From the NCBI RefSeq assembly GCF_026870155.1, contig NZ_CP113975.1, positions 3,534,001 to 3,598,000 on the forward strand: 64,000 nucleotides of DNA. Direction: 5' to 3'. The notes under the pieces were generated by a model. That model worked only from the letters and a program-made list of their open reading frames with translations, had not been told where the DNA came from and did not search any database. Every line of letters begins with the position of its first letter. The stretch's first letter is position 1. Shown one piece after another: positions 9,534 through 62,135 of this stretch. The stretch comes from Flavobacterium marginilacus (GTDB lineage: Bacteria; Bacteroidota; Bacteroidia; Flavobacteriales; Flavobacteriaceae). Both the position numbers and the translations under genes were made by a program.

Positions 9534-9637
9534 GGAGCAGAAACATTGGGTATTTTAAGCAAGATTGGTCCCGCTCTTCGCTGCAATCTTGTGGGCTGAA
9601 CCCCAGCCCACAAGGATTTCCACTGCGATCGGGGCTA
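9534..9637. repeat. Structured interspersed repeat, copy 1 (hairpin with AACCC loop)
   Basis: A repeat of about 104 bp that starts at ggagcagaaacat and ends at cggggcta. It contains an 11-bp perfect stem (9588-9598 with 9604-9614; cttgtgggctg/cagcccacaag) closed by the pentaloop AACCC. The stem is framed by gtcccgct on the left and cggggcta on the right; CCCG and CGGG could form an outer stem. A second copy lies at 60492-60585 plus 62044-62050, with the same frame and loop but a different, still perfect, stem. It sits in the 454-bp gap (9377-9830) between GH8 and CE1. The rest of that gap has only a short cctgtt/aacagg hairpin near 9440 and no credible gene. Confidence 0.75.
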
Positions 9638-9830
9638 AAGAGAAACACTTGTGCTCTTTTGCCATTATTTATAAAAACAATTTAAGGTTTAACTAATTCT
9701 ATTAATTTATCTTATATAAAAACAACAAGCTTTACTGATAATTCATTAGCTAAATAATAACTCCGATAAATTGTAAACTATGGGAATTCTAATTTTTAAT
9801 TACTCAATCTAATCGCAGATAATACTTAAT

Positions 9831-11117
9831 CTATTTAGTCTGAGGAGTAATTATCTGATAATTACCGCTCAAATGCATCAGACTAAAAAGATACATTAGA
9901 CCATCATAATAAGGGTCAAAATAGCCATCCTCATACGGTTCAAGCTTAGCGTTCCAGACTGCATGCACAAAATCTAAACTTCCCTTTTCATCATTTATCA
10001 TTGCTGTTGCAGCAGCTGTGGCAACTAACCCAATCGAGTGCCTCAATTTTTTCACAGTACCCGCCTGCAGAATAAATTCTGGAGCTGAACCGTCAAGATT
10101 AAACTGATCCTGATACGTATCCATCCCTTTAGACCTTAAAAACTTTTGAAACTTCACAGCATATTCTTTCTGCCATTTTTTGTCTTTACCAAACCAAGCA
10201 TAATCCATTGCAATATTCATTGGAACACGCCAGGAATCATAACGAAATCCTGCTGGCATCCATGGAGTTACATGGGGCTTACCATCAAATTCTGTATAAT
10301 CAGAATTCAGACCCGTTACCGGATGTGTCGCTTTCTTAAAAAACACTCTAGAGGTATCTGCGCAATCTCTATAAAATTGCTCATGTCCATCTTTTGCATA
10401 TTCAGCCCATATTTCATAAAAAGCGGGTAAATGATAAGACGGATCTGTCCATTTATAATTTCTTCCTTCAGGTACAAAACTTATTTGCTTATGCTCAGTA
10501 TTAATCAGATTATAAATATTGCCTGTTCCGTCTTTTTTCCACATAGCATCCAGTATTCGTCTGGCTTCCTTGTAATAATTAATGCCGGTATTATTACCCC
10601 ATCTGTTTGAAGCAAACAAAAGACTGGTTATGTAATACAGTTCCCCATCAGATGCAGATCCAGGAGAATTCTGCTTCATAGTAACAGGGTTAAGACTCCA
10701 TGCAAAATAACCCTCACGAGGACCGCTTTGATGCTGCAGATAGGCTTTAGAAAATCGCCATATTTTATCAAAAATATCTTTTTTATTCAGCTGCACTGCC
10801 ACCATCATTCCGTATGACATTCCTTCAGTTCTTGCATCCTTATTTTTCACATCCGATACGTAGGCCATTGTATCTCCAACAGTAAAATAAACACGATTGG
10901 GACCTTCAAAAACATCGTAATAAGCCTTAGAAAGTTTCTCTCTAATAGCTGCTTTTTTATACCCTGCTTCTAAAAAAATATTTCTGTATTTTATATTTTC
11001 AAATGCTCCTTTTGATTTCTTTTTTTCTTGGGCAAAAAGCATATTAGAAGAAACAATAACAGACAGTAGAAATAATCCTGTTTTATGTATGTTTTTGAAT
11101 AAATTTGCTTTTATCAT
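9831..11117 (-). CDS. GH8 enzyme, probable reducing-end xylose-releasing exo-oligoxylanase
   Basis: A 428-residue secreted GH8 enzyme. The ATG at 11117 is preferred because it leads directly into a signal peptide (MIKANLFKNIHKTGLFLLSVIVSSNMLFAQ); an alternative start 36 bp upstream adds 12 residues. The (alpha/alpha)6 barrel shows the GH8 general-acid motif ARTEGMSYGMMVAVQL, followed by YFAWSLNP and SASDGELYYITSLLFASNRWG. Length and motifs fit Rex-type enzymes, which take single xyloses from the reducing end of xylo-oligosaccharides, and the xylan setting supports this. A GH8 endoxylanase is the alternative. It follows CE6 at 51 bp. Confidence 0.8.
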   Translation of the reverse strand: MIKANLFKNIHKTGLFLLSVIVSSNMLFAQEKKKSKGAFENIKYRNIFLEAGYKKAAIREKLSKAYYDVFEGPNRVYFTVGDTMAYVSDVKNKDARTEGMSYGMMVAVQLNKKDIFDKIWRFSKAYLQHQSGPREGYFAWSLNPVTMKQNSPGSASDGELYYITSLLFASNRWGNNTGINYYKEARRILDAMWKKDGTGNIYNLINTEHKQISFVPEGRNYKWTDPSYHLPAFYEIWAEYAKDGHEQFYRDCADTSRVFFKKATHPVTGLNSDYTEFDGKPHVTPWMPAGFRYDSWRVPMNIAMDYAWFGKDKKWQKEYAVKFQKFLRSKGMDTYQDQFNLDGSAPEFILQAGTVKKLRHSIGLVATAAATAMINDEKGSLDFVHAVWNAKLEPYEDGYFDPYYDGLMYLFSLMHLSGNYQIITPQTK

Positions 11118-11168
11118 TTGGTAAATATCTGGCTGATTAGCTGTAAAAATCATTACTGAAATTCTATA

Positions 11169-12020
<852 letters not shown>

Positions 12021-12074
12021 TTAATGGTCATTTAAGCAGTTGCATTTATAATTTAGTATAATTTGAAATAGAAT

Positions 12075-13625
12075 TTATTTTGCCCAAGCTTCGCCTTCTG
12101 GTGTACGCCTCCACGAAAAATAGGAATCTAAAACCTCTAGTGATTTTAAACTTGGAACTGGACCAGTGTAGGCACTATTATTGAAATACATTAACTTGGG
12201 ATCCGAATTGTTAAAAGCCGGCCAGTTAGGAATATCTTTGCCGTTAGGGTCACCATATTTTGCAAAGTTTGTCCAATAAGTTCCCATTAGATCTGAAACT
12301 GCTAAATCTGACTTGCTCGTTTGTGGGTTTGATTTATCTAAATTCTCAAAAACATACGCTACCTCCTGACCATGGTAAGAACCAAAACCATAGTATTGTG
12401 AATCTTTAGGATGATCTGGATGCTGATCAAAATAGTAAAAAAACACTTTTGACTTTCCCGTTTTTGCCTGAAGTCTCGCCCAAGACCATGTCTGCCAGCC
12501 AAAAGCAGCATCGCGGGATAAATCACGAGCCGTTTTAGGAACTGAAGAATCGCCCACAGGATAAGCTCTTAAAAGATTTTCTGCGAATTTACCATAGCGC
12601 GTTTCTACACTCCTGATAAATTCCTTTGGGTCTTTGGTTCGTGTAAAACTTGCCCCTTCATCTGAATTGTAACCAATAAGAACGGGAATATCATTATATC
12701 TGCCCGCTTCATATAATCTGTATTGATCGTCTGGAATTACCCACCCGTCAGTAATGGGCCAACCTCGCCCTGCAGGGAGTTTATCAGCCTCAATCGACCG
12801 TAATTTTTCAATTGAAGCCACTCCGGCATTTTTCATATAATCCACTCCTTCCTTTTCAGCTGTCTTAAGTGTTTTCATGTTTTCACCTGGATACGTTGTA
12901 AGTCTTGAAGGACCGAATGAACCGCCGCTTTGTGATATAGCACCATTAAAAAGCCCTTTTGCTAAAGGCGAAGCACATAACATACTTACTGCAATACCTC
13001 CTGCTGATTCTCCAAAAATGGTTACTTTATTTGGATCGCCTCCAAAAGCAGCAATGTTCTCTTTTACCCACTGCAGACCTGCAATCATATCCAGTAAACC
13101 GTAATTTCCTGAAACATTTTTTGGATTTTCAGCGCTCAGTTCCGGGTGTGCCATAAAACCTAACTGTCCCACACGGTAGGCAATACTTACCAATACAACA
13201 CCTTTTTTGGCCAAATTTTTACCATTGTAGGAGGCTTCAGAAGTTGCTCCTGCTCCAAATCCGCCTCCATAAATCCAAACCAGTACCGGAACTTTTTCTT
13301 TTGCAGATTTAGCTGGTGTCCATACATTCAGGTAAAGACAATCCTCGCTCTTTCCAGAAGGTGGATTTCCTCCCTGGATTGGACCCGGCGCAAATTTATT
13401 TACCTGCAGCACACCATCCCACTTTTTTACTGGCTGAGGAGCACGCCATCTAAGATCTCCAACCGGCGGTTTTGCAAATGGAATTCCTTTGAAAACCAGT
13501 AATCCATCTTCAGCAGTTCCAAGCAACTGACCTTGCTTCACTTGAACTTGTGTTGTTAGCGATTGGGCAATTGTACTCGAAAAAGTCAAAGAGGTTAATA
13601 CTACAGCTATAAATATATTTTTCAT
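12075..13625 (-). CDS. Type-B carboxylesterase (PF00135 family)
   Basis: A 516-residue secreted alpha/beta-hydrolase. A signal peptide (about residues 1-20, TFSSTIAQ) is followed by the full carboxylesterase fold: SEDCLYLNVWTP near the N-terminus, oxyanion-hole region WIYGGGFGAGAT, nucleophile Ser207 in FGESAGGIAVS, and histidine in GSYHGQEVAYVF. Members hydrolyse esters of many kinds. In this operon the likely substrates are acyl decorations of xylan or their released oligosaccharides, but this is inference from neighbours. Length is typical for the family and no key residue appears lost. Confidence 0.82.
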   Translation of the reverse strand: MKNIFIAVVLTSLTFSSTIAQSLTTQVQVKQGQLLGTAEDGLLVFKGIPFAKPPVGDLRWRAPQPVKKWDGVLQVNKFAPGPIQGGNPPSGKSEDCLYLNVWTPAKSAKEKVPVLVWIYGGGFGAGATSEASYNGKNLAKKGVVLVSIAYRVGQLGFMAHPELSAENPKNVSGNYGLLDMIAGLQWVKENIAAFGGDPNKVTIFGESAGGIAVSMLCASPLAKGLFNGAISQSGGSFGPSRLTTYPGENMKTLKTAEKEGVDYMKNAGVASIEKLRSIEADKLPAGRGWPITDGWVIPDDQYRLYEAGRYNDIPVLIGYNSDEGASFTRTKDPKEFIRSVETRYGKFAENLLRAYPVGDSSVPKTARDLSRDAAFGWQTWSWARLQAKTGKSKVFFYYFDQHPDHPKDSQYYGFGSYHGQEVAYVFENLDKSNPQTSKSDLAVSDLMGTYWTNFAKYGDPNGKDIPNWPAFNNSDPKLMYFNNSAYTGPVPSLKSLEVLDSYFSWRRTPEGEAWAK

Positions 13626-13722
13626 AAGTAATTTTCTTTTGATTTTATACTATTTTCCATTTAAAACTATTCTAGAATTCAAGTCTTTCATTGATGTTTT
13701 TTACAAAAGCTAACTCATAACT

Positions 13723-14961
13723 TTATTTAAACAAACCTAAATCTATGGCTTCGCCCATTCTTTTGTAACCCAATTCATTTGGATGCAAAAAATCCTTATC
13801 ATGCATATTGGGTAAAATAGTTTTTGAGCCAGGCTCTGAAGCCATTGCTGCATCAAAATCAATTACAGCATCAAAACCATTATTTCCTCGAATCCATGCA
13901 TTTACAATATCTCTGGCTTCTTGTCGATAAGGCGCATCATAAAATGATTTTTCAAACGGTAGAATAGTACAGCCATACACTTTGATTCCCTTAGCGTGTG
14001 CTTTGTCGATCATCACTTTATAGGCAGCAATCAATTCCTGTGCTCTTACTGGAGATTCTTCAGCAGTTTTAATCCCTCCAATATCATTTATACCTTCAAG
14101 AATTACTAACCATTTTGTTCCAGCCTGAGAAAGTACATCTCTGTCAAATCGATTCAATGCTGTTGGACCTAATCCGCCTCTGACAACACAGTTTCCTCCA
14201 ATTCCTAAGTTCAAAACTCCAATATGTTCTGTTCCTTTATTTTCTAATAAACGTCCAGAAAAAATATCAGTCCATCTGTTCTGTTTATTAGTTCCTGAAC
14301 CTCGTCCATCAGTAATAGAATTCCCTAAGCAGACAATATTTGCCGATTTTTTAGGTGCAATAACATCCACTCCCATAATTGAATACCAATGGTCTGTCTT
14401 CACCGCACCCGAAAAAGCAGCATTGTTCAGATTATCTGCCTCCAAAATATAAGAGGTTGTTCGGGAACCTGGATGCCCGGATGTTTTTTGCGAAGCAGTC
14501 CCATAATGAATAGTTATCGCTAAAAGCTGGCCTGGCTGCAGCACAAAATCAAAAGCATCTGAAAACACTTCTTCCTGAGGGTTCATTGTTACTCCCGGAT
14601 TTCCTTTGAAGCTGAGTGTCTTTTGCGTAGCTGCATCAATAGCCGGAGCATCAGCAACATTTGCAATACTTACCGATTTTAAAACAGTTGGCTGATCACT
14701 ATATATATTTGAAAAGTGTAACCTCAGCTTTTTCCCTCCAATTGAAACCCTGATAATCTGCCTCAATGTATTTTCAGCCAAACCTGGAGCAGGCGGCATA
14801 TTATTGGGTTCAACAAGCATTTGTGCCGTAGCCCAAGTTCCTACCCAATTTTGAGTATTGGATTTTTCAATTCCATTTACGGCTGTTTGACTGGATTTAC
14901 ATCCCTCCAAAATAATGAGGAGACTAAAAAACAAAACCCATTTGATATGTTGCTTTTTCAT
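13723..14961 (-). CDS. SGNH/GDSL-family esterase, probable lipoprotein
   Basis: A 412-residue protein with a lipoprotein-type signal (LEGC, Cys21), so probably membrane-anchored. Residues about 40-200 form a beta-rich N-terminal region. The SGNH domain follows with CLGNSITDGRGS (nucleophile serine), NLGIGGNCV, ILEGINDIGG and the His block DFLHPNELGYKRMGEAI. The layout matches secreted GDSL esterases found in plant-polysaccharide loci. Acetyl-ester removal from xylan is inferred from context. It directly follows GH115 with a 14-bp gap, so the two are surely cotranscribed. Confidence 0.78.
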   Translation of the reverse strand: MKKQHIKWVLFFSLLIILEGCKSSQTAVNGIEKSNTQNWVGTWATAQMLVEPNNMPPAPGLAENTLRQIIRVSIGGKKLRLHFSNIYSDQPTVLKSVSIANVADAPAIDAATQKTLSFKGNPGVTMNPQEEVFSDAFDFVLQPGQLLAITIHYGTASQKTSGHPGSRTTSYILEADNLNNAAFSGAVKTDHWYSIMGVDVIAPKKSANIVCLGNSITDGRGSGTNKQNRWTDIFSGRLLENKGTEHIGVLNLGIGGNCVVRGGLGPTALNRFDRDVLSQAGTKWLVILEGINDIGGIKTAEESPVRAQELIAAYKVMIDKAHAKGIKVYGCTILPFEKSFYDAPYRQEARDIVNAWIRGNNGFDAVIDFDAAMASEPGSKTILPNMHDKDFLHPNELGYKRMGEAIDLGLFK

Positions 14962-14975
14962 ATTGAATCTAAAAA

Positions 14976-17936
14976 TTATTTTGCATTATACTGATTTGAA
15001 ACTGGTCCAAAATAACTGGGATACCTATTATTTGGGTTGATAACAATGTTGTCAATCACTACTTCTGGATCAATCATAAAGATTTTCAAGGTATGAATAC
15101 CCGGTTCGCTTACTTCTAATGCTGTATCAAGCCACCTCATATTGTCAAAAATATCGCTTCGCCGTTCCTTACCACTGCCGTTCAAATAACAATCTCTGTT
15201 TAAAGGAGGAAGTGGTTTTAACACTTTTGAGTTCGCTAAATTACTTGGGGTATATTCTTTGAACTCATCAACCATACCTTTTCGAGCATCAATAATTTGG
15301 GGTGTTTGATTATCTAAAGCAACTGCAATTCTCAATCCACGAGTTGGATTAACATCCTGCACAGGAAGAATACCTAAAAAAACTTTTGCTTTTCCTTTTT
15401 CAGAAAGTAAGACTTTATATTCTAATCGAGGAGCTGTTTCTACAGTTGCACTTGGTGCATTTGTTGGATAAATTCCCATACTCGCTTCTGATCTTCCTAA
15501 ATCTGATAAAGCAATCCATTTTGCATTCTTTCCTGGTATATTAGCATTGTATTTATTTGAAGGAATAGAAAATTCTCCCGTTAAACTCCCAAAATAAGGT
15601 TCGTTAATTTTTGGCTGATCTGCTTTTACAGCGTCAAGCTGAACAGATACTATATTATTTCCTTGACTAACTTCAATCACACCATCAAAAGTTCCATCGG
15701 CTAAAATATTCCAGTCTATATCTACCTGAATACGTGTTTCTTTTTCAACAACCCCTTTAGACTGACTTAATTTAATCCAAGGTTTATTTGCTTTAGCAAC
15801 AAATTCAAATTTTCCAAGACCACGGTTAAATACGTCAATATAATAACTGGATTTAGCCAATCCGTCAAATACAGGCAATACTGCTTTATCAGTAGCATTC
15901 GGCCATGATAATTCAGATCCTTCTATAGCGACACCCATCGTTGGCTCAGCTAATGGAGTTATTTCTTTCATCTCAGGAAGTTGATTAGCTTTAGGCATAG
16001 ACCACATTGTATACCCCATGTGAACGTCACTCATCATATTCTTCCACTTCCCTTTGGACATTGTATCATTGTAGTAATCACTCATTTTTTTATCTTCTTC
16101 AAAAAGATCCTGAGCACGTTTGTAAAAATCATTTGCACTTACTCTGCCTTGTTTTGCAAAAAGCCTGTTTTTATCGGCTGCCAGAAAGATTTCAGCAACG
16201 CCGGCCGAAGCTTTCGCTGGATACAATACTAATTGATAATAAGCATCTTGAGCATCTGAAGGAATTTCTGATTTTAATTTTTCTGCTTTATCAGTTACTT
16301 CCCTCCATAGTTTTAATACTCTATCCGATTCATGGTTATTGACAACGCTAAAAATATTAGCAACCTGTACTTCAGGTTTACGCCAAAGATTATATTTGGT
16401 ATACTTTGAAACTATATCTGCAATCTCTTCAGCATGTTCGTTTCCAAAAATTCTCTTAGCCCAATCAACTGTATAATTCCAAGTTTTATCCGCTGGGATT
16501 CCATCTGGATTCCAGGCAAAACGCATAATAAAATCAATAGGAAGTTCTTTAGGCTTTAAGTCACCAACATTAACTATCCATAATTTATCAAGACCTGATT
16601 GATAAGCCAAATTAAATTGTTCTTGCAGTTTAGGAATTGTAGTAGTGTTAAGCCAACGATCATTCCAAGGACCTCCGTTCATATCAATATGATAGTACAA
16701 TCCACCCCCTCCTATTCTATTCTTTTCCTTTTCTGGATAAGTACGTCGTATTTGTCCCCAGTTATTGTCACAGAATAAAAGAATAACATCATCTGGAACT
16801 GTCATGCCTGCATCGTAATAACGCTGCACTTCTGTAAATATAGCCCAAACTTGAGGGTGATTTTCAGGAGGATCATTATATACTTTTTGAATAATTCCTC
16901 TTTGCTTTTTTATAACATTCTGCAAAGTGTTAATGTTCTTTAAATCGTCACCTTCTCCCATTGCCACATCACCTTCGCCACGCATTCCAATGGTGATTAA
17001 GTTATCAAAATTTTTATTGCGTTCTAATCCATCGTAAAAAAATTGACTAATATTCTTTTCATTGGTTTCAAAGTTCCATTCCCCAATTTCTTTTTTTCTA
17101 TCTGTATATTCTTTTTGCGAACGCATCATCGGTTCATGATGTGAAGTTCCCATCACAATGCCATATTCATCAGCAACTACGGGATTCAGCGGATCGTCTT
17201 CATTAAATGATTTTCCCCACATTGCTGGCCATAAATAATTGGCTTTCAAACGCAAAAGTAATTCAAACATAGTGGCATACATTTTGGAATTTATTCCTCC
17301 GTAATTTCCTCTTGCCCATTGTGCAAATGAAGGTTCCTCATCGTTGATAAATATGCCGCGGTATTTTACTTTTGGCGAATTTTGAATGTATGTTCCATGC
17401 TTAATGTAAAGTTCTTTTACTTTTTTAATTGGAACATCAGCCCAAAAATACCATGGAGAGACGCCAATTTTTTCCGAGATATCATAAATTCCATAAATAG
17501 TCCCCCGTTTATCACTGCCTGCTACTACTAACTGACCGTCTACTGTCTGAATTAAAAATGATTCCCACTGTCCTTTTATACCAGAAACATCAATTTTTTT
17601 AGCAGCTATTAATTTATCAATAATCTGGCTTTTACCGATAGTTCCTACCACAATAGAATTCTTTTCAGATTGTATGCTTTCAAAAACCTGAGAAGATTCC
17701 CCTGTTACTTTTCGGACATCATCTCCTAAATCTTTCGCAGCGCGGACAACTCCTTTCCAATCACTTGGATCAACATAAATAGAAGCTGATTTACCATTAG
17801 CCGCAATTGTAAAAGCATGTGTTTCCATTTGATGCAAAACATATTGTGGAGGTGTTTGCTGGACACTTTTTTTAATTGACTGACCAAATGTATTTGCCAT
17901 TAAAAACAATACTGCTGATAACGTATAAAATTTCAT
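14976..17936 (-). CDS. GH115 xylan alpha-1,2-glucuronidase
   Basis: A 986-residue secreted enzyme that removes (4-O-methyl-)glucuronic acid from internal xyloses of xylan. The start at 17936 gives signal peptide MKFYTLSAVLFLMANTFGQ; another ATG 15 bp upstream is possible. An N-terminal GH67-like alpha/beta domain (about residues 25-190) is followed by the TIM-barrel with the GH115 signatures NYLWPAMWGKSFNEDDP, GIVMGTSHHEPMMR, FCDNNWGQIRRTYP and YYHIDMNGGPWNDRWLNT. A C-terminal beta-sandwich region (about 650-985) carries the GH115_C-type module. Length is at the upper end of the family. It lies between GH43 and SGNH genes and marks the substrate as glucuronoxylan. Confidence 0.92.
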   Translation of the reverse strand: MKFYTLSAVLFLMANTFGQSIKKSVQQTPPQYVLHQMETHAFTIAANGKSASIYVDPSDWKGVVRAAKDLGDDVRKVTGESSQVFESIQSEKNSIVVGTIGKSQIIDKLIAAKKIDVSGIKGQWESFLIQTVDGQLVVAGSDKRGTIYGIYDISEKIGVSPWYFWADVPIKKVKELYIKHGTYIQNSPKVKYRGIFINDEEPSFAQWARGNYGGINSKMYATMFELLLRLKANYLWPAMWGKSFNEDDPLNPVVADEYGIVMGTSHHEPMMRSQKEYTDRKKEIGEWNFETNEKNISQFFYDGLERNKNFDNLITIGMRGEGDVAMGEGDDLKNINTLQNVIKKQRGIIQKVYNDPPENHPQVWAIFTEVQRYYDAGMTVPDDVILLFCDNNWGQIRRTYPEKEKNRIGGGGLYYHIDMNGGPWNDRWLNTTTIPKLQEQFNLAYQSGLDKLWIVNVGDLKPKELPIDFIMRFAWNPDGIPADKTWNYTVDWAKRIFGNEHAEEIADIVSKYTKYNLWRKPEVQVANIFSVVNNHESDRVLKLWREVTDKAEKLKSEIPSDAQDAYYQLVLYPAKASAGVAEIFLAADKNRLFAKQGRVSANDFYKRAQDLFEEDKKMSDYYNDTMSKGKWKNMMSDVHMGYTMWSMPKANQLPEMKEITPLAEPTMGVAIEGSELSWPNATDKAVLPVFDGLAKSSYYIDVFNRGLGKFEFVAKANKPWIKLSQSKGVVEKETRIQVDIDWNILADGTFDGVIEVSQGNNIVSVQLDAVKADQPKINEPYFGSLTGEFSIPSNKYNANIPGKNAKWIALSDLGRSEASMGIYPTNAPSATVETAPRLEYKVLLSEKGKAKVFLGILPVQDVNPTRGLRIAVALDNQTPQIIDARKGMVDEFKEYTPSNLANSKVLKPLPPLNRDCYLNGSGKERRSDIFDNMRWLDTALEVSEPGIHTLKIFMIDPEVVIDNIVINPNNRYPSYFGPVSNQYNAK

Positions 17937-18017
17937 TTTGAATTGAATCATAATTGATTATAAATAGATTTGAGACAGCCTATAAGCGAGACTTTAAATT
18001 AAAAATTACAGTATCAA

Positions 18018-18048
18018 AGACCCCAAAATCAAAATCCCTTCGGGGTCT
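18018..18048. other. Intergenic hairpin between GH43 and GH115
   Basis: The 7-bp perfect stem agacccc/ggggtct (18018-18024 with 18042-18048) has a 17-nt loop. It is not followed by a U-tract on the minus strand, so a terminator is unlikely. A role in mRNA processing or stability within the operon is possible but unproven. Confidence 0.4.
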
Positions 18049-18073
18049 GTAACTTAAAAACTGCATCTTCTCT

Positions 18074-19807: not shown

Positions 19808-19866
19808 TTCTAACTATTTATTTATTATTTATTAATTTTATTCTTTTCTAACTTTAGTTTGTACTG

Positions 19867-21219: not shown

Positions 21220-21322
21220 TTTATTTTACATTAATTGACTAAATATCCCTCCATTACATTTTTTAAGGAAACTGATACTTTAAATTGCTTCTTAAATACA
21301 TAATTATCTGAATCCTTTTTTA

Positions 21323-40688: not shown

Positions 40689-40939
40689 AGAAGCTAAAGC
40701 AAAATGTCGCAAAGTACATAGTTTTAACTTTTTTTAAGACTAATAACCTGAGTTCGATTGTTAGGCTGACTGAAACTGCAAGATTGGATTGCGAAAATTG
40801 ATGAAATTTTGCCACAGATTCACAGATAAAAAATGATTTTAAAATCTGTGAATCTGTGGCAAAATTTTTTTAGAAGCTAAAGCAAGATGCGCTGAAAGTG
40901 TATAGTTTTAAACTCTAATTGAGACCAATAAAACGCTGA
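40689..40939. repeat. Pair of imperfect ~65-bp direct repeats flanking a palindrome
   Basis: Copy A (40689-40751) and copy B (40872-40939) both begin agaagctaaagcaa, share tagttttaa in the middle and end in aataa..ctga. They are 183 bp apart and enclose the perfect palindrome at 40804-40867. Copy B ends next to the stop codon of the transposase remnant. They occupy most of the 380-bp gap after the sensor gene; no gene is seen in that gap. Confidence 0.6.
40804..40867. repeat. Perfect 24-bp inverted repeat with 16-bp spacer
   Basis: Arms 40804-40827 and 40844-40867 are exactly complementary over 24 bp and contain gccacagattcacagat. The right arm is followed by a T-run (ttttttt), so on the plus strand it could work as a strong terminator for the sensor gene, and on the minus strand for the convergent side. 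The arm sequence recurs in degraded form at 5562-5639, so it is also a dispersed repeat. Confidence 0.75.
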
Positions 40940-47835: not shown

Positions 47836-47863
47836 AATAATTAAATTAAGTGTGTGTTTAAAT

Positions 47864-50800: not shown

Positions 50801-50887
50801 TTTTTGGTCAATTTGAGCGAAAATCTTGGCAGGTAAGAAAGCAAATAGCACAAAACATAACACTATTTTAAGTTGTATATATCTCAT
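47864..50887 (-). CDS. SusC-like TonB-dependent outer-membrane transporter (pair 2)
   Basis: A 1007-residue TonB-dependent transporter. A signal peptide (about residues 1-24, LPAKIFAQ) is followed by a carboxypeptidase-D-like domain (about 30-105, INLAGIVIGAGGKPLVNAAVVSKK), a plug (about 130-235, LVDGVPRDIN ... LYGSRAAKGAIYITTKKG) and a 22-strand-type beta-barrel ending in LGVKALF. The TonB-box region is atypical: LVQVAFKKEESKDLMGGV replaces the common DEVVVVGYG pattern. A similar VQVAxxK form is common in one branch of SusC proteins. It should import longer or branched xylo-oligosaccharides with its SusD. It follows the first SusD by 45 bp. Confidence 0.93.
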   Translation of the reverse strand: MRYIQLKIVLCFVLFAFLPAKIFAQIDQKINLAGIVIGAGGKPLVNAAVVSKKDNVKAATDKNGSYSITVTADTDIEFSAAGYTALVLKATTAVSDINLNKENSNLVQVAFKKEESKDLMGGVSFVNLPEILEKNYTTYSLDGVQALIGGLNGNLWGMNGILVLVDGVPRDINTVLSTEVEQITFLKGVSAAALYGSRAAKGAIYITTKKGKVQKQQITTRFDNGVFVPKSLPKYLGSAEYMHYYNQARVNDGLDPTYTDETIYNYASGKNPYRYADVNYYSPKYVKEFYFNYDANIEITGGNKSARYYTVANFSSQQDPLQSFGEAANNNNNRFNVRGNVDIQINNRISATIGANAIYSNSRGVNTNYWSSAATLRPYLFSPLVPISMIESSDDASMTLVKNSNYIVDGQYLLGGTQLNPTNPFAAIYAGGHTTFTSRQFQFNTGVNVELGDVINGLTFHTDFAVDYSNSYSQSYNNTYATYEASWNNYAGIDQITSLTKYGKDSKTGIENISGSSLSQTVAFSGQFNYLKKINEQHNLSAMLIGSGYQQSLSAVYHKTSNANLGLNLSYNFDQKYYAEFNGAYVHSAKFAEGNREGFSPTMSLGWKLSEEDFMKDVTAVNNLKLNVSGGILNTDLDVSNYYLYESIYSQTDGQWFSWRDGALNRSTDVRRGENLDLGFAKRNELSAGLEGAFFKNFITLNTNFFVNEINGNVIQASSLYPNYFVTNFPNTSFLPYINYNDDKRIGFDFDVRFNKKVGNVDLALGLTGTYVDTEATKRAELYDDSYQNRQGRPLDALWGLKSDGFFTDALDITNSPSQTFGQVKPGDIKYIDQNGDGIIDNKDEVYLGKAGWYGAPFTFGINFTAKWNNFTFFTIFTGQTGAYAMKNNTYFQMDGEDKYSINVRDSWTEETKETAVYPRLSSLSSDNNFRSSDFWMYSTNRVNLSKVQLTYDFPKKALQKTFFNELSVYALGSNLLTISQNRDIMELSIGGAPQTRYYNLGVKALF

Positions 50888-50932
50888 TATTCTATAATTT
50901 TATTTTTAAATTTTTTAAAATAATCATTTTAA

Positions 50933-52822: not shown

Positions 52823-52832
52823 AGTTGTAATT

Positions 52833-55800: not shown

Positions 55801-56036
55801 AAATTTTTTTCGCCTTTTACTGAAACTGTAGTCCCTGGAACACCTTTGCCGTCTTCTGACGACGTTACCTTTCCTGTAACTGTAATTTGCTGCTTAATGT
55901 TACTGTTTACAACATATCTTGAACCAGAGAAGTCCTTCTCTGCAGCTGATAATTGGGTGATAAACAAAAACTGAAACAAAACTCCTAAAGGCAGATACAT
56001 AGCTCCGTTTAGAATTTTAGATAATTTTATTTTCAT
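52833..56036 (-). CDS. SusC-like TonB-dependent outer-membrane transporter (pair 1)
   Basis: A 1067-residue TonB-dependent transporter, first gene of the right arm. The ATG at 56036 yields signal peptide MKIKLSKILNGAMYLPLGVL...QLSAAE; an ATG 30 bp upstream is possible. A carboxypeptidase-D-like domain (about residues 60-130, VTGKVTSSEDGKGVPGTTVSVKG) precedes a canonical TonB box (SLDEVIVVGYGKQKKASLV), a plug with PQLFIRGASTWNNAQPLILVDGVERP and AVYGVRGANGVILITTKRG, and a C-terminal barrel ending RFNLGANIIF. It imports large xylan fragments through a TonB-energised channel with its SusD partner. Expression is probably driven by the hybrid sensor. Confidence 0.95.
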   Translation of the reverse strand: MKIKLSKILNGAMYLPLGVLFQFLFITQLSAAEKDFSGSRYVVNSNIKQQITVTGKVTSSEDGKGVPGTTVSVKGEKNLSVSTDFDGRYTINVPSDAVLVFSFVGFKTVERSVENNKEINVVLTPEKTSLDEVIVVGYGKQKKASLVAAITQVSGKVLERAGGVQSIGAALTGNVPGLITSASSGMPGEEDPQLFIRGASTWNNAQPLILVDGVERPINSVEITSVESVSVLKDASATAVYGVRGANGVILITTKRGQSGKALIRTTFNTTVKTLSKLPAKLDSYDGLMVKNSVIENELALSPSSWADYVPQAIINKYRYPANVAESERYPNVDWQDALFKDYAMSYNASLNVSGGTKSVKYFASADFLREGDMFKKYNNNRGYDPGYGYNRLNVRSNLDFQITSSTVFKVGLAGSRGIKKSPWGASGGEYTMWDAAYSTAPDVFLPYYEDGSWGYYAPNQGKASNSVANLARSGVQYVTTTRLNTDFTLEQSFDKWVKGLSFKGMVALDNSFVEGDRGISDLYNDAQEKYIDPVTGVVLFKKAYDSNNRFDFQEGVKWSTTGGSVRDWNTYRKLFYQLQLNYQAKIADNHHITALGLFSRDQYASGSEIPHYREDWVFRTTYNYADKYFIEYNGAYNGSEKFNENNRFAFFSSGGLSWIISKENFMKSTDSFLDLLKIRATYGEIGDDNINGRWLYQSQWAYGGNSVLGTTGESAEASPYTWYKQATVGNEDVHWEKAKKSDIGADFSFFKGFVTGTFDYYKEDRTDILLAGGSRAIPSYYGAVAPVANLGRVQNKGYELELKFNRTFGNGLNLWWTTNFTHTKNKIISADNPGLLPNYQKSEGYSIGQAHSYVSQGYYNTWDELYASTIHSTNDAAKLPGNFNILDYNGDGVIDSKDNIPFGYTGTPQNTYNNTVGVNWKGFSAFVQFYGVNNVTRQVVLTSLSGQNHVVYDQGSYWSKDNTDAVQPVPRWLATASEYNNGSRYMYDGSYLRLKNAEIAYTFDGKTNWIKSSGLQSIRFYLNGNNLFLWSNMPDDREANYAGTGWASQGAYPTVKRFNLGANIIF

Positions 56037-57162
56037 GTTATTTAAATATTTTTGAACTTGATCCATACTTTATACTGTTATCAATACTGCTGATAAACAG
56101 ATACAGACTTGATTAAATTAATTTTATATTTTTAGCCGGAAATTGATAATATTCTTATTTTAATTCAGGCTGTTATTTATAATCCCATATTCAAATTATC
56201 AATGCTTAAGCGAGATCATTTGGATTTGTGGATTATAAATGGTCTTGACAAAGCTCTCTGCATCCAGACTCAAGCTGCTACTCAAAAATTTTTTGAATCG
56301 TTTTTGTGTTTTACTGTTTTTACATTCCTCATAAGGTTTGAGGATTAAAGGCTGGCAAAAAAAAGCAGACCTTAAAAAAGTTTTTCGAAAAAATAAAATT
56401 TTGGTCATAATGGTTAATAAATTCTTGGTTGTTTGTTTGGTTGTTTTTTTCATTAAATGCAATTTGTTTACTAATGTTTTTATCAAAAATCAAATATTTA
56501 AAACTGCTGCCTATTTCTGTCTTGGAGACCAATGCTGTTTCTCATTTAAAAAATATTGCTTTAATAAATTTTGAAAAGAAACAGAAACACCAAATCATGT
56601 GATACGAACAATTTCAGGTTTTAAGAACATAATTATTGATATTAAAAATAAAACCTGTTTTTTTTTTATAATCAATAAAAAATTAGATGATTCAAAAGTA
56701 TTTATTAAAAACAGAGGCAGACTATTCGTTTGTTACAGATACTTTACACTACGTTACATATGAAAATAAAATGTAACAAACTGCAGAAAACTGTCCCGCA
56801 TTAATGAGTTTTACAAGACTAAGCTTATGTTTTATAAATAAGAGGAGAGAAAGACAGATTGCGGTTATTTCTTAAAGAAGCTGTCTAATTTATAAAGACA
56901 ATATCATTTCAAATTGACAGATGAATCAAAATATACCTTCTTTATTTGAAAATACTATTTTCCAAATAATTTTTCGTTTTGATAAAACCAAAATCTATTC
57001 CTATACGGAAGCTAAAATGCTAAGAAAAATTTACTAATGTAAAACCTATTGATAAAGGAAAAACTAAAAACCGTACACTATTACTGAAAGTAAAATATAA
57101 ATTATTCCGATAAAAAAAGAGTATTTACTTACTTTTATACGCTAAGCAAAGCTTTTTAACAT
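56037..57162. other. Long gene-free region upstream of the SusCD operon
   Basis: About 1.1 kb without a credible gene; short ORFs here are lysine/phenylalanine-rich and look random. It should hold the promoter and sensor-binding sites of the SusCD operon. The only exact -7 match on the minus strand is TACTTTTG (56693-56700) with a poor -33 (CTG after a 17-bp spacer), which would imply a leader of about 650 nt. No confident promoter, operator or riboswitch was recognised. Confidence 0.5.
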
Positions 57163-57190
57163 AAAAAAAAGAAGGCCGTATCAGGCCTTC
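57163..57190 (-). terminator. Rho-independent terminator of the GH5 gene
   Basis: A 7-bp perfect GC-rich stem gaaggcc/ggccttc (57171-57177 with 57184-57190) has a 6-nt loop and is followed on the minus strand by eight Ts (57170-57163). It lies about 80 bp after the GH5 stop codon and separates that gene from the SusCD operon. Confidence 0.9.
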
Positions 57191-57271
57191 CTCCATTCAA
57201 ATAATCACTCTAAACATTAAATTTCTCCTCTGGAAAGGATCCCAGGGTGAAGTTTATACTCAAACTTAGCA

Positions 57272-58330
57272 TCAATTCTCCCCCCAGCCGTATCGTATAC
57301 GGAATACACCGGAACTATTAACAGTGTTAATAGAAATATTCGTACCGCTGCCTCCTCTGTTAAATACACTATAAGAGTCACCATCTCTTAGACCTGGCCA
57401 GTAAACGCTGGCAATCTTATCAGTCCTGCATACATCACTGGTTGCAACTATATAGGCAATTTCATTATCGGTCTGATTTCCATTTTGGTAATCTTTACCA
57501 GAGTTCATTGTAGCACCAAATTCAGTAATAACCGTGCGGCTGCCATAACTCCCTATCCGGCTACGCCAGTCAGCCCTCCATTGAGTAACAGATCTTGTAG
57601 CCCAAAAGGCATAATTGTGTAATCCAAGTAAACAGCCGTTGAAACGGCTGTCAGCCCCCACTCCAGTAACATTCTCAGAATATCCTATACCATCCAGAAC
57701 TATTCTTGCTTTTGGAACATTTGGATAATTGGAAAGAAATTGGGCATAAATACCAGTTAATTGAGCCAAAGTATACCCATGAGGCTCATTAAAAGGCTCA
57801 AAATATACATTACTATTACTTTGATATTTAGTTATTACCGTATTCCACATGCTCCAAAAGGCTGTCGTATTATCAATAATACCGTCTTTAGACGAAGATG
57901 ATTCCCAGCAGGCAATAATAACTTTCCAGCCTTTGCTTGTCGCTTTATCGATTACCCCTTGATAACTAGCCCACCAGCTCTCAGCAACCGAAGGAGGATT
58001 AATCGGGATGCGGATTGTATTAACACCGCTTATTTTACTTGTAAAACCATTCAAAACAGCATCGGTTTTAGCGACAACTGTTGCATAACTGTCTCCTGCT
58101 TCAAGCCCCGAAATAATCACCCAGCCGTCTACAAAATTATCTCTTCCGTCAGCCCAGTTTAATCCGGCAATGGATGCGGCTCCAACTTTAGCAGTCAAAG
58201 AACTGCTTTTTATCACCGTATTTTCAGTTGCAGGAGCAGCTGTTGCGCTTGTCTGATTAACTTCCGCAACCTCATCTTTTGAACAGGCACATAAAATAAT
58301 GCCCAGCATAAGTACATACTTTTTTTTCAT
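57272..58330 (-). CDS. GH5-family lipoprotein glycosidase, monocistronic
   Basis: A 352-residue GH5 enzyme with a lipoprotein signal (VLMLGIILCACSKDE, lipidation at Cys14 or Cys16). The barrel runs from about residue 50 (ASIAGLNWADGRDNFVDGWVIISGL) to the end. Catalytic residues are Glu182 in YFEPFNEPHGY (acid/base) and Glu270 in VITEFGATM (nucleophile); NTIRIPINPPS is the conserved arginine strand. It shares only family motifs with the GH5 protein at 41953. It has its own terminator and a long upstream gap, so it is expressed on its own but probably under the same sensor. An endo-acting surface role on xylan or beta-glucan is inferred. Confidence 0.85.
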   Translation of the reverse strand: MKKKYVLMLGIILCACSKDEVAEVNQTSATAAPATENTVIKSSSLTAKVGAASIAGLNWADGRDNFVDGWVIISGLEAGDSYATVVAKTDAVLNGFTSKISGVNTIRIPINPPSVAESWWASYQGVIDKATSKGWKVIIACWESSSSKDGIIDNTTAFWSMWNTVITKYQSNSNVYFEPFNEPHGYTLAQLTGIYAQFLSNYPNVPKARIVLDGIGYSENVTGVGADSRFNGCLLGLHNYAFWATRSVTQWRADWRSRIGSYGSRTVITEFGATMNSGKDYQNGNQTDNEIAYIVATSDVCRTDKIASVYWPGLRDGDSYSVFNRGGSGTNISINTVNSSGVFRIRYGWGEN

Positions 58331-58804
58331 TTACATAAAATGTTTAAATTGTTAAATTAATTTTCTAGTATTCAGTTCAAACCACTATATCAGTACCAAT
58401 CTTTTTTTACGGTATTTGAATAATAGTTTAAATAATGCATTAAGTATCCAGACTCTTTTTATTTGAAATTTCTTTTCTTGAAATCAGCAAAAAAAATCTT
58501 TATAACAGTGCACTGCAGTAATTAATCATAAGGTCGGTTCATGGTCTTTTAATTGGTTTCGTTAATAAATAGTAATAGTATAAGCTGTAGTCACACAACT
58601 AAAACTTCAATTACAAAGTAAAGTATTACATAAACCGATCAGCAGGGACAAATTGGAAAATAAAGAGGGTTAAATTAGAAATTCATAATTTTTTACCAAT
58701 AAAAAAACACATTGTAAAAAAAATAACTTAATTAAATAGTTAATAATCAATAATTACACTAACACAACAAATATTCAACAACTAAAGACCACACAAAAAC
58801 ATAT

Positions 58805-58905
58805 ATTCCATCATTTAGAAGCAGTAAACAATCCAATTACCCCCTCTCGATTGGAGAAGACCGGAGGGGTGAGGTAAAAAGCACTTTATATTTCTAAAAA
58901 GCATT
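58805..58905. repeat. MITE-like element, degraded copy 2
   Basis: The core taccccctctcgattgg...ggaggggtgagg (58838-58874) matches the central part of the elements at 44911 and 63658. The flanks keep only partial terminal repeats (catttagaa on the left, tatttctaaa on the right). About 100 bp, so the same size as the other copies. Confidence 0.55.
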
Positions 58906-59099
58906 ATCTATGAATATCCAATTTATTAGCTGCACATAATAACAATAAACCTATTATTTCCTGTGCAGCCGTATCCAAAAACAACTACAGCAGCTACATC
59001 AGAAACAGCAAACAATAGAATCCAAGCGAAGCAGATTATCAAAGCAGCCAGCTTCTAAAAATAAATTTACTTTCAAGATGCTAATACATTATAAATAAT

Positions 59100-59107
59100 T
59101 ATTTTTG
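59100..59107 (+). promoter_or_regulatory. Candidate -7 element of the acyltransferase gene
   Basis: TATTTTTG matches TAnnTTTG exactly and lies 60 bp before the ATG. No clear -33 TTG is seen 17-23 bp upstream, so this is a moderate-confidence call. Confidence 0.4.
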
Positions 59108-59167
59108 CTCCCGATTCCGGAACTTTGTAACGGGACTTAAAATTAATAGTACTACAGAATATATATT

Positions 59168-60430
59168 ATGGTAAAAGATTTATTTGAAAGAATTCAAAAC
59201 AACAAAGGTCCGCTGGGAAAATGGGCTTCACAGGCTGAAGGTTATTTTGTTTTCCCTAAATTAGAAGGAGAATTAGGACCAAGAATGAAGTTTCAGGGGA
59301 AAGATATTTTGAACTGGAGTTTAAACGACTATTTGGGTCTTGCGAATCACCCAGAAGTGCGTCAGGCTGATACTGATGCAGCAATTGCATTTGGAGCAGC
59401 AGCTCCAATGGGAGCGCGTATGATGAGCGGTCACACTAAATATCATGAGCAGTTAGAACAGGAATTGGCTGCTTTTACAATGAAAGAGTCAGCTTATTTA
59501 TTGAATTTCGGTTACCAGGGAATGGTTTCTATCATCGATGCTTTGGTTACCAGAAACGACGTGATTGTATATGATGTTGACGCTCACGCCTGTATTATCG
59601 ACGGTGTTCGTTTACACAGCGGAAAACGTTTTACCTACAAGCACAACGATGTCGAAAGCATGGAAAAAAACCTGGCACGTGCTACAAAACTTGCCGAAAC
59701 AACAGGCGGAGGGATTTTATTCATTACCGAAGGTGTTTTTGGAATGCGCGGACAGCAGGGAAAACTGAAAGAAATTGTAGCAATGAAAGAAAAATACAAT
59801 TTCCGTTTACTAGTTGACGATGCACACGGTTTTGGAACACTTGGAAAAACAGGTGCCGGAGCAGGTGAAGAGCAAGGATGTCAGGACGGAATCGATGTTT
59901 ATTTCTCGACTTTTGCCAAATCTATGGCGAATATCGGAGCTTTCGTTTCTGCTGACAAAGACGTTATCGATTATTTAAAATACAACCTGCGTTCACAGAT
60001 GTTTGCCAAAGCGTTACCAATGATCCAGACTATCGGTTCGTTGAAACGTTTGGAATTACTGCGCCAGTCTTCGGAAATCAAAGACAAACTTTGGGTAAAC
60101 GTAAACGCACTGCAAAACGGTTTGAAACAAAGAGGATTCAACATTGGTGACACCAACACCTGCATCACTCCTGTTTACTTGGAAGGAAGTATCCCGGAAG
60201 CAATGGTTATGGTAAACGATTTGAGAGAGAACTACGGTATTTTCCTATCGATCGTGGTGTATCCAGTAATCCCAAAAGGAATCATTTTATTGCGTATGAT
60301 TCCGACAGCTTCTCACACTCTACAAGACATTGACGAGACTTTGTCTGCTTTCGAAGCTATCCGTGAGAAATTAACAAACGGTACTTACAAAGAAATCGCA
60401 AGCAAAACTACTGTTGATATGGAAGCTTAA
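59168..60430 (+). CDS. Serine palmitoyltransferase-like alpha-oxoamine synthase
   Basis: A 420-residue PLP enzyme of the alpha-oxoamine synthase family, which condenses an acyl-CoA with an amino acid. Motifs are the N-terminal acyl-CoA region (LNWSLNDYLGLANHPEV), AYLLNFGYQGMVSIIDAL, DVDAHACIIDG (ring-stacking histidine), LVDDAHGFGTLGKTG (aspartate-histidine pair) and TFAKSMANIGAF with Schiff-base Lys251. Bacteroidota members with TFAKSM act as serine palmitoyltransferase (sphingolipids) or as the cysteate acyltransferase of sulfonolipid synthesis. Flavobacteria are known for sulfonolipids, so the second role is a real possibility; sequence alone does not decide. It is a chromosomal housekeeping-type gene with its own terminator and is not part of the xylan locus. 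Confidence 0.85.
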   Translation: MVKDLFERIQNNKGPLGKWASQAEGYFVFPKLEGELGPRMKFQGKDILNWSLNDYLGLANHPEVRQADTDAAIAFGAAAPMGARMMSGHTKYHEQLEQELAAFTMKESAYLLNFGYQGMVSIIDALVTRNDVIVYDVDAHACIIDGVRLHSGKRFTYKHNDVESMEKNLARATKLAETTGGGILFITEGVFGMRGQQGKLKEIVAMKEKYNFRLLVDDAHGFGTLGKTGAGAGEEQGCQDGIDVYFSTFAKSMANIGAFVSADKDVIDYLKYNLRSQMFAKALPMIQTIGSLKRLELLRQSSEIKDKLWVNVNALQNGLKQRGFNIGDTNTCITPVYLEGSIPEAMVMVNDLRENYGIFLSIVVYPVIPKGIILLRMIPTASHTLQDIDETLSAFEAIREKLTNGTYKEIASKTTVDMEA

Positions 60431-60450
60431 CAATAAGCAACCTTACATAT

Positions 60451-60489
60451 AAAAAATCCATCGGTCAAAAGGCTGATGGATTTTTTTTT
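60451..60489 (+). terminator. Rho-independent terminator of the acyltransferase gene
   Basis: aaaaaatccatc (60451-60462) pairs with gatggatttttt (60475-60486) around a 12-nt loop and is followed by further Ts. It begins 20 bp after the stop codon of the acyltransferase gene. Confidence 0.85.
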
Positions 60490-60576
60490 GGGGAGCAGAA
60501 CATCAGTATATTTGATCAGGTTCAGTCCCGCTTTTCGCTATATCTGTGGTCCTGAACCCCAGGACCACAGGATGCC

Positions 60577-60585
60577 GCTGTAATC
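60577..60585. repeat. Left target-site duplication of the IS4 element
   Basis: gctgtaatc at 60577-60585 is repeated exactly at 62035-62043 on the other side of the element. This is a 9-bp duplication, as expected for IS4-family transposition. Confidence 0.9.
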
Positions 60586-62034
60586 CTACCGTGTGGACAC
60601 AAATACAATTTCGTTATTTTTATCACTAAATAAAGATATAATATGCGAAGATATTTTACAGACATTGATGATTCTCGACTATTAAAAAGGAGTAATTTAA
60701 TATTAGATAGTTTATTTCATAATTGTGTTCATTCGGTACGTCAGCTTACACAAAGCGATTCAGAATGTAAAGCAGTTTATCGTTTCTTGCAGAACAAAAG
60801 AGTTTCAGAATCGAAATTAATTAAAAACATGTCAGCAAACTGCTGTTTTTCAGCTCAAGACAAAACAGTTTTATGTATACAGGACACAAGTGAGATCAAT
60901 TTATATAATCATAAAAACAGAGTTAAAAAAGACGAATTTATAGGATTGACTAATGCTGCAGCAAAAGGAGGAATTGGATTTTTACTGCATCCTAGTTTCG
61001 TTATAGATGCTTATAGTTTTGTTCCGTATGGCTTTTCAGATGTAAAAATATGGAACAGGCCTTTAGAGAAACTTACAAAAAAGGAAAGGAATTATAATTT
61101 GCTTCCAATTGAAGAAAAGGAATCTTATAAATGGATAGAATCTTCCCAAAAATCCAAGGAAGTTTTAGAGAAATCAAAAAAAGTCATCATCATTCAGGAT
61201 CGAGAAGGTGATATTTATGAGCAATTTGCAATGATTCCAGATCAAAAGACGGAATTATTGGTAAGAGCAAGAGCAAACAGAACGCTACTAAACAAGGTTA
61301 AATTGTTTAGTTTTATAGCCAATGAACCTCTTAAAGGGAAATATACGATAGAATTAGAAGGTGATAAAAGAAGAAATATAAACAAACGGGAAGCTACCTT
61401 AGAAGTTAGATTTTCTGAAGTAACTATCCAAAAAAATGATTTAGTTTCAAAGAATGCACCCAAAAGCCTTGATTTATATATCATCGAAGCAAAAGAAATT
61501 GGCGATAACATTGATAATCCAATATGCTGGAGATTACTAACAACCATTAAAGTCTTAGACCTAGACACAGCCTTAAAATGTATCGAATGGTATACTTGTA
61601 GATGGATTATAGAAGAGGTTTTTAGAATTCTAAAAAAGGAAGGATTTAATATAGAAGCAAGCGAATTAGGTTCTGCAAAATCTATTCGAAAATTGTCTTT
61701 AATGATGATGGAGACAATTGTCAAACTATTTTTAATGCAAATAGCATATAGTATTCCAGAGGAAGAAATAGAAGCGAGAAGTTGTTTTTCAGATCAAGAA
61801 CTTGAATGTTTAGAATATCAAATGATAAAATTAGAAGGAAAAACAGAAAAATTAAAAAATCCTCATATCCAAAAGGATTTAAAAAGATATGTTTGGGTTA
61901 TTGCAAGGCTTGGTGGATGGAAAGGATATGCAAGTGGGAGAAAACCAGGAATAACCACTTTCTCTATCGGAATACAGAAATTTGCTTCAATAATGGAGGG
62001 ATGGCAATTGTTTTTAGATGTGTCCACACGGTAG
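60586..62034 (+). mobile_element. Complete IS4-family insertion sequence, 1449 bp
   Basis: Perfect 15-bp terminal inverted repeats, ctaccgtgtggacac at 60586-60600 and its complement at 62020-62034, enclose one transposase gene. The 9-bp direct repeat gctgtaatc flanks both sides. All parts needed for mobility look intact, so the insertion is probably recent. It landed inside copy 2 of the structured repeat, 102 bp upstream of the esterase gene at 62136. Confidence 0.93.
60643..62034 (+). CDS. IS4-family transposase (Tn5/IS50-like)
   Basis: A 463-residue DDE transposase. The N-terminal region (about residues 5-65, DDSRLLKRSNLILDSLFHN ... AVYRFLQNKRVSESKLI) matches the Tn5-type DNA-binding domain. 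Catalytic residues are Asp81 in CIQDTSEINLY, Asp186 in IIIQDREGDIYE and Glu324 in the IS4 signature Y-x2-R-x3-E-x6-K (YTCRWIIEEVFRILK). The C-terminus (RLGGWKGYASGRKPGITTFSIGIQKF) fits the Tn5 dimerisation region. The stop codon TAG at 62032-62034 is formed by the last three bases of the right terminal repeat. There is no sign of frameshift or decay. Confidence 0.93.
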   Translation: MRRYFTDIDDSRLLKRSNLILDSLFHNCVHSVRQLTQSDSECKAVYRFLQNKRVSESKLIKNMSANCCFSAQDKTVLCIQDTSEINLYNHKNRVKKDEFIGLTNAAAKGGIGFLLHPSFVIDAYSFVPYGFSDVKIWNRPLEKLTKKERNYNLLPIEEKESYKWIESSQKSKEVLEKSKKVIIIQDREGDIYEQFAMIPDQKTELLVRARANRTLLNKVKLFSFIANEPLKGKYTIELEGDKRRNINKREATLEVRFSEVTIQKNDLVSKNAPKSLDLYIIEAKEIGDNIDNPICWRLLTTIKVLDLDTALKCIEWYTCRWIIEEVFRILKKEGFNIEASELGSAKSIRKLSLMMMETIVKLFLMQIAYSIPEEEIEARSCFSDQELECLEYQMIKLEGKTEKLKNPHIQKDLKRYVWVIARLGGWKGYASGRKPGITTFSIGIQKFASIMEGWQLFLDVSTR

Positions 62035-62043
62035 GCTGTAATC
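62035..62043. repeat. Right target-site duplication of the IS4 element
   Basis: gctgtaatc, identical to 60577-60585. The element sits between the two copies with no extra bases. Confidence 0.9.
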
Positions 62044-62135
62044 GGGGCTATTCTGAAAGTTTATATTTTCATAAGAACCAGCACAGACAGCGCATAAAAA
62101 TTCTGTACTTTTATAGCACTAAACCAAAAAAGAAA

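Follow-up and report, generated by a model that had tools for sequence, protein, structure and literature searches.

Flavo-1 repeats of Flavobacterium marginilacus keep their outer stems at persistent sites and carry apparently exchangeable tips

Flavo-1 (Rfam RF01705) is labelled by Rfam as a small RNA (sRNA) gene of unknown function. It was rated "probably" RNA and "probably not" cis-regulatory by Weinberg et al. (2010) (PMC2864571), and a 2022 review places it among the most abundant sRNA families, without a function (PMC9029176). For Flavobacterium psychrophilum, Guerin et al. (2021) reported hits lying indistinctly sense or antisense of transcribed regions, many of them outside, with no clues to function; these data give no picture of orderly transcription (PMC9723704). 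Two copies of Flavo-1 lie in the window analyzed in this study, a stretch of 64,000 nucleotides (nt) from F. marginilacus (contig NZ_CP113975.1, positions 3,534,001 to 3,598,000). From comparison of these and related copies, it appears probable, though by no means certain, that Flavo-1 is a hairpin-forming DNA element, dispersed over the genome, in which copying between loci sometimes overwrites the upper stem-loop and the conserved lower stem is maintained on one strand. In the open-access literature on Flavo-1 or on tip exchange, no account of such an exchange was found, and the accessible passages on Flavo-1 hold nothing on tip replacement, within-genome tip likeness, an outer/inner boundary or insertion-sequence targeting. 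Flavo-1 is a known element, with a tip-exchange behaviour that is apparently undescribed so far.

In Escherichia coli, repetitive extragenic palindromic (REP) sequences are bound by TnpA_REP, which reads the irregular lower stem, the upper stem-loop having a non-specific structural role, and a conserved GTAG tetranucleotide precedes the hairpin (PMC8266576). The anatomy of Flavo-1, as judged from sequence, would fit this arrangement of an irregular lower stem and a structural upper stem-loop. Like REP sequences, bacterial interspersed mosaic elements (BIME) and REP doublets forming hairpins (REPIN), Flavo-1 is a short, extragenic, imperfect hairpin of many copies with an irregular lower stem, and a target of insertion sequences. 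Unlike REP sequences, it measures about 76 to 160 nt, has no conserved GTAG, has its tips replaced at fixed sites, and is without a linked or co-occurring REP-associated tyrosine transposase (RAYT) of the type tested below. Integron attC sites are folded strands with conserved lower boxes, unpaired extrahelical bases, a variable terminal structure and an R-box (GTTRRRY/RYYYAAC). Flavo-1 shares the folded strand with a conserved lower part, unpaired extrahelical bases and a variable terminal structure, but is dispersed over the chromosome, and the R-box (compared by eye) is absent from its consensus. Integron-like arrays were considered in three genomes (G461, G528, G663); the close copies of G461 and G528 have repeated flanks too. 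Organelle genomes carry double-hairpin and other short palindromic dispersed repeats with changing stems, and palindromic repeats have reportedly been treated in a paper on Volvox. Flavo-1 differs from these in being bacterial, in having a lower stem conserved on one strand and in tip replacement at orthologous sites. The inverted ends of miniature inverted-repeat transposable elements were not seen in the Flavo-1 conservation profiles (49 long-form and 57 short-form copies).

Both window copies were matched on the minus strand by the Rfam covariance model. Copy 1 (9640-9563) scored 74.6 bits (E = 1.4e-14) and copy 2 (60602-60520) 36.4 bits (E = 4.4e-4), respectively above and below the Rfam gathering score of 42 bits; the score of copy 2 is low because an insertion sequence splits off its left end. 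The preliminary description of this DNA had reported two stems, cttgtgggctg/AACCC/cagcccacaag at 9588-9614 and ctgtggtcctg/AACCC/caggaccacag at 60544-60570, in a common frame (ggagcag / gtcccgct / tcgct / atcggggcta); the frame was found in both copies, and 11 of 11 pairs are Watson-Crick in each stem. It knew of no named family for the repeat, but both copies are Flavo-1, and the AACCC loop, which it called invariant, is only common: many of the 204 copies collected here have a T-rich loop, a stem of another length or a nested hairpin. Copy 1 is of the long form (9534..9665, minus strand), with an outer flank (ggagcag...gggtatttt on the plus strand), the RF01705 core (9563..9640, minus strand) and a left flank (gctaaag...cttttgcc); its outer ends were judged by eye from the conservation profile of the 49 long-form copies. 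The exchangeable tip of copy 1 (9588..9614) is an 11-bp stem with the loop AACCC on the plus strand, GGGTT on the minus strand. An identical tip is present at three more loci of this genome, and the tip is retained at the shared site of the relative G151, with one compensatory pair change and one wobble. The main part of copy 2 (60492..60585, minus strand) comprises the long-form right arm, the exchangeable tip (60544..60570) and the inner arms, to the insertion point; a leftover left end, ggggcta on the plus strand, stands at 62044..62050 (minus strand). At the shared site in G151 (C79:8741, a one-flank match) the tip of copy 2 is replaced by a different hairpin, CCATCTCGT..ACGAGATGG.

Copies were collected with flanks from this genome (G000, 95 of 95 matches) and from G151 (109 of 110, one short-contig match being left out). 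Reciprocal best flank matches gave 40 sites shared by the two genomes, 28 of them by both flanks, at a mean flank identity of 84% (range 76-94). In most of the 18 pairs that were aligned, homology enters the outer arms on at least one side and is followed by an unrelated stem-loop. Tips at shared sites had a mean identity of 0.55; random pairs gave 0.51 and permuted pairs 0.50. The 20 nt beyond the core on either side were identical at 0.67 and 0.61, against 0.52 and 0.48. Of 25 shared sites, 17 agreed in the outer pair 10-67, for which the random rate is 0.35 (P = 0.0002), and 11 in the inner pair 14-63, for which it is 0.34 (P = 0.18). The arm type agreed at 20 of 31 sites, with 19.6 expected at random (P = 0.60); a stricter pattern, applied to 17 of the 40 pairs, gave the same outer/inner picture. 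Flanks and outer helix follow the site, and the inner stem-loop hardly does so; inheritance of the inner pair and the arm type with the site is not detectable.

The tips themselves are most alike within genomes. Among 187 clean copies there were 161 distinct tips, 15 of which recur without change at one or more further loci. For 110 copies the closest other tip belonged to the same genome and for 37 to the other one, 40 copies being tied (P = 2.5e-12), nearest-tip identity being 0.885 within a genome vs. 0.827 between genomes. At sites with replaced tips, a tip of at least 0.85 identity was present at another locus of the same genome for 22 of 27 own tips and 18 of 27 tips of G151. Three own loci share one tip down to its T.G wobble, which is what copying would lead one to expect. 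Other palindromes are contained in some tips, such as the TTCGACTACGCTCA hairpin in G195 and TTCGACAGGCTCAGCCTGACA in G418.

Two sites were followed through the genus, with 66 genomes searched and 30 loci read for each. At site 2 (own position 1543191), Flavo-1 is at the same place in 24 of the 30 loci, and one tip type is common there. The arms of the own copy and of G112 differ by one letter around different tips, and the tip with the stem TTTTATGGTG is found in G108 and G333, on separate well-supported branches. Two close pairs carry unrelated tips, G366/G202 (flanks 4.7% apart, tip identity 0.63) and G394/G312 (5.4%, 0.57), and a third, G042/G323 (5.1%), carries the same tip. Over 20 species, merged tip classes required 5 changes, one above the minimum of 4; shuffles averaged 5.9, and 18 of 200 needed no more than the observed number. 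An initial result of no phylogenetic signal in the site 2 tips (15 changes vs. 14.9 shuffled) was overturned by the 20-species test, which gives a partial signal; the initial tip classes were narrow, with 11 of 14 being single rows and some near-identical tips split, and replacement was overstated. At site 1 (own position 2880596), the element is present in eight genomes including G000, with differing tips and with inserts in the tip in G150 and in the left arm in G260. The copy in G234 is inverted, G157 is without the element, and the other 21 loci read have a 37-52 nt spacer instead. G157 is a candidate empty site, which a deletion between TTAGC repeats explains equally well.

These histories could also be produced by a mobile element with a strong site preference, if an old copy were lost precisely and a different copy re-inserted, so that the tip only seemed replaced. 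The differences in sites between species, the inversion in G234, the absence from G157 and the G366/G202 pair, which differs over nearly the whole core, would suit such an element. We regard it as unlikely, since the outer pair and the adjacent flank letters follow the site (20-nt flank identities given above), the arms of the own and G112 copies at site 2 are nearly the same around different tips, and neither target duplication nor terminal repeats were found at the ends of Flavo-1.

On the Rfam strand, the fold consists of a 4-bp outer helix (CCNG/CNGG), an A.G mismatch, 2 bp, a 3x3 loop and 2 bp, followed inwards by a second 3x3 loop, 3-4 bp, one bulged C and a tip of nearly free sequence. 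The 3x3 loops are mostly GNA/GNA in B-type copies, and the second loop is mostly GGC/ATA in the A-type. This arm anatomy was read from the 136 of 264 sequences that fitted a strict pattern, with 124 distinct arm pairs. Conservation profiles separated a long form (49 copies), which has some 40 nt of outer flank at either end, from a short form that lacks these flanks (57 copies). Covariation was calculated for 38 of 42 gap-free B-type copies with G-rich loops, four with replaced arms being excluded. Pair cells were paired in 98.1%, against 86.1% in shuffles, two-sided changes numbered 103 vs. 30 (0 of 500 shuffles as high), 13 of 22 pairs changed on both sides, and the covariation value was 0.390 vs. 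0.150 shuffled. The structured dispersed family of the preliminary description, in which pairing is preserved while sequence varies, is borne out by the Rfam matches, by the 95 matches in this genome and by covariation: further copies exist, and the stems of the aligned ones keep pairing.

Arm pairs contained G.T 30 times and A.C 9 times on the Rfam strand (P = 0.001), and the fold therefore matters on that strand. Among 141 distinct tips the counts were 38 G.T and 22 A.C (P = 0.05), and in transfer RNA (tRNA) stems 22 and 0 (tips vs. tRNA, Fisher P = 4e-4), so that selection at the RNA level appears a less fitting account of tip pairing. For copy 1, good folds were obtained with either strand, whether as RNA or as DNA, and folding energy therefore does not decide the molecule. 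Flavo-1 is mostly intergenic. Its orientation to genes leans slightly antisense (60 vs. 38, P = 0.03), and the flanking genes are divergent in 46 and convergent in 19 cases, as counted from simple open reading frame (ORF) calls for 163 of 204 copies, 30 copies overlapping an ORF call. No leading/lagging bias was detected in this genome (49 vs. 46), with the origin near 0 and the terminus near 2.75 Mb judged from GC skew.

If Flavo-1 were a structured RNA, as its Rfam label has it, the paired changes would be ordinary compensatory evolution under RNA-level selection. Strong covariation, the arm G.T excess on the Rfam strand, GNA/GNA internal loops, which fit RNA, the compensatory pair and wobble between copy 1 and its G151 ortholog, and the rating by Weinberg et al. 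(PMC2864571) all speak for an RNA. It is nevertheless rather doubtful that RNA-level selection accounts for the family, as whole tips at many shared sites have been replaced and have not merely drifted, tip mismatches are nearly strand-neutral, unlike those of tRNA, the antisense lean comes with no leader-like pattern, and in the accessible F. psychrophilum data hits are indistinctly sense or antisense and many are untranscribed (PMC9723704).

Under the favoured reading of inter-locus copying, insertion sites can persist across many species, and from time to time the whole tip, often with the arms from pair 14-63 inwards, would be replaced by a hairpin copied from elsewhere among the Flavo-1 loci of that genome or, sometimes, by a foreign palindrome. 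For the copying route we infer ectopic gene conversion, or template switching at a stalled hairpin, with the shared arms providing homology; gene conversion is said to have been proposed earlier for REP sequences, by Higgins in 1988. The lower stem is maintained on one strand; it would probably serve a protein binding folded single-stranded DNA (or RNA) as its recognition site, and the tip would need only to pair. The family, its fold, the strand asymmetry of its arms, the lasting of its sites, the replacement of tips and their likeness within a genome are observed; the copying route and the binding partner are proposed from these observations. Among the ideas of the preliminary description, a copying mechanism that preserves structure fits best. 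Several results weigh against this reading. Tips are slightly more alike at shared sites than in permuted pairs, none of 300 permutations reaching the observed value, so inheritance accounts for a small part of their likeness, and 7 of 34 pairs with clean tips retain the tip at an identity of at least 0.75. Of the shared sites, only 17 to 25 out of 40 could be parsed for the pair tests. Tip and flank distances at site 2 remain correlated over 20 species (Mantel r = 0.43, P = 0.003); taken together with the close-pair tips and the class changes, this indicates that a tip is passed on over short spans and has been replaced again and again. The G366/G202 pair could also have arisen by precise loss and re-insertion. 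The arm G.T excess and the weak tip excess would equally suit RNA, and the tRNA control comprised only 10 distinct tRNAs. Recent whole-element duplication could explain part of the within-genome tip likeness, all comparisons are between species, with donor-recipient events not seen directly, and some 20 nt is a short stretch of homology for conversion of the RecA type.

Should part of the Flavo-1 covariation stem from hairpins copied between loci, covariation alone would be no proof of RNA, and what Flavo-1 is would become testable with strain collections. The family provides a natural setting in which to follow the movement of palindromes from locus to locus in a bacterial chromosome, and it also offers an insertion sequence that homes to hairpins.

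The functional signal of the arms may come from a protein that reads folded single-stranded DNA, which is a guess by analogy with TnpA_REP. The preliminary description had suggested a REP/RAYT system, and a partnership of Flavo-1, as REP or REPIN, with a RAYT (TnpA_REP) transposase would suit its irregular lower stem and free tip, high copy number, extragenic position and REP-like use as an insertion-sequence target. The comparison of genomes makes this highly improbable. The single RAYT-like gene of this genome has other hairpins on its flanks; a homologue is missing in 8 of 17 genomes with at least 60 Flavo-1 matches (61 genomes compared); G024 and G033 have a homologue but one Flavo-1 match each; no conserved GTAG is present in the 38-copy consensus, the nearest letters, at the loop, being GNAG with GTAG a minority; and the leading/lagging bias is absent. 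This co-occurrence test covers homologues of the type found here, and other Y1 transposases may differ. The RAYT-like Y1 transposase (170 aa, L038 1300-1950) is accompanied by its own short hairpins, TTTTAGCCCTGTAGGGGCG and relatives, apparently a separate REP family. Also recorded were seven transposase genes of the IS200 type, all alike in size and score, at 389039, 1989745, 2037152, 2555982, 2598842, 2940292 and 4853839 of G000.

A DUF1016/YhcG nuclease was considered as partner and rejected; it has 8 matches in this genome and is absent in 5 of 8 Flavo-1-rich genomes among 18 searched. Neither tested candidate, the RAYT of the type here or DUF1016/YhcG, fits as binding partner. One DUF1016/YhcG gene ends about 10 bp from the Flavo-1 match at 576595 and is located between two methionine-synthase-like genes (named by eye; L009 and L142, G000 574360-578180), with one Flavo-1 match before the first of these and another just after the DUF1016 gene. 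Close Flavo-1 pairs were rejected as the ends of a larger element, the genes in three merged intervals and one further locus being ordinary by eye except DUF1016; the number of close pairs is about that expected from random spacing (an estimate). A bolder variant, in which Flavo-1 loci are docking bases for a dedicated enzyme that recognises the GNA/GNA lower stem of single-stranded DNA and exchanges whatever stem-loop sits above the GAT/AGC joint, seems distinctly improbable; if true, it would be a recombination system with a DNA hairpin as its sole cargo.

For abundance, 95 Flavo-1 matches were obtained in this genome at E <= 1e-3, of which 81 exceeded the Rfam cut-off; this is a lower bound, because 150 of 1481 first-look candidates were scored. 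Matches were present in 58 of 61 genomes of the genus, all except G018, G020 and G058, where up to 64 candidates were scored per genome and many genomes are at or near 64, so that counts per genome are to be read as at least the number given. Across the class, 109 of 295 genomes had matches, 69 of them over the cut-off.

The repeat of copy 2 is interrupted by an IS4/Tn5-like insertion sequence (60586..62034, plus strand) of 1,449 bp with 16-bp terminal inverted repeats (CTACCGTGTGGACACA / TGTGTCCACACGGTAG), which is why the last block of the frame stands about 1.45 kb further on (62041-62050). It encodes a transposase of 463 aa (60643..62034, plus strand; Pfam Tnp_DNA_bind and DDE_Tnp_1) and is bordered by a 9-bp target duplication, gctgtaatc (GATTACAGC on the Flavo-1 strand), at 60577..60585 and 62035..62043. 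Ten end pairs of this insertion sequence were found in the genome, one just about 200 bp long, and eight lie at one same position of a Flavo-1 lower stem, six in Rfam-matched copies and two in degraded Flavo-1-like hairpins recognised by eye. The duplication is exact in 6 of these 8 insertions and reads GATNNNARY on the Rfam strand in 5 of the 6. The other two end pairs are inside another palindrome. For protein relatives of the transposase, 14 of 30 returned loci were read. Four ends (G014, G002 and two in G185) abut Flavo-1-like letters, one relative in G056 is in a palindrome within Flavo-1, and a 39% relative in G016 is in another palindrome; seven fragments in G030 and G079 adjoin terminator-like sequences with a T run, and one piece in G014 runs to the contig end. 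The insertion sequence homes to hairpins, using Flavo-1 as a target. Insertion sequences with REP palindromes as targets were already known (PMC1525189).

Further structured sequences were recorded in the window and in related loci. A long, near-perfect intergenic palindrome with a stem of about 30 bp lies at 40797-40874 of the window; the microRNA family matches returned there were rejected as chance hits to a long palindrome. A relative of Flavo-1 (L142 1490-1600; L310-L312) has the same inner stem and another outer helix, GCGTGA..TCACGC, which closes a second hairpin in some copies; this relative is present outside the genus too. A conserved piece, approximately GAGCGACCAGCGGAAGCTC, is nested in longer A/T-rich palindrome tips (G151 C114:48657 and C84:10953, own 88153) and is also found at site 1 in G150 and at site 2 in G157, as a second structured element riding in the tip. 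Short inserts of the GGAGTTCAGTGAACTTCGTTTG and GCTTCGCCAGTTCGCTTCGCTCGTGTG types occur at a recurring position of the Flavo-1 arm, at G151 C101:2860, C102:2323, C100:19116 and others, and at site 1 in G260.

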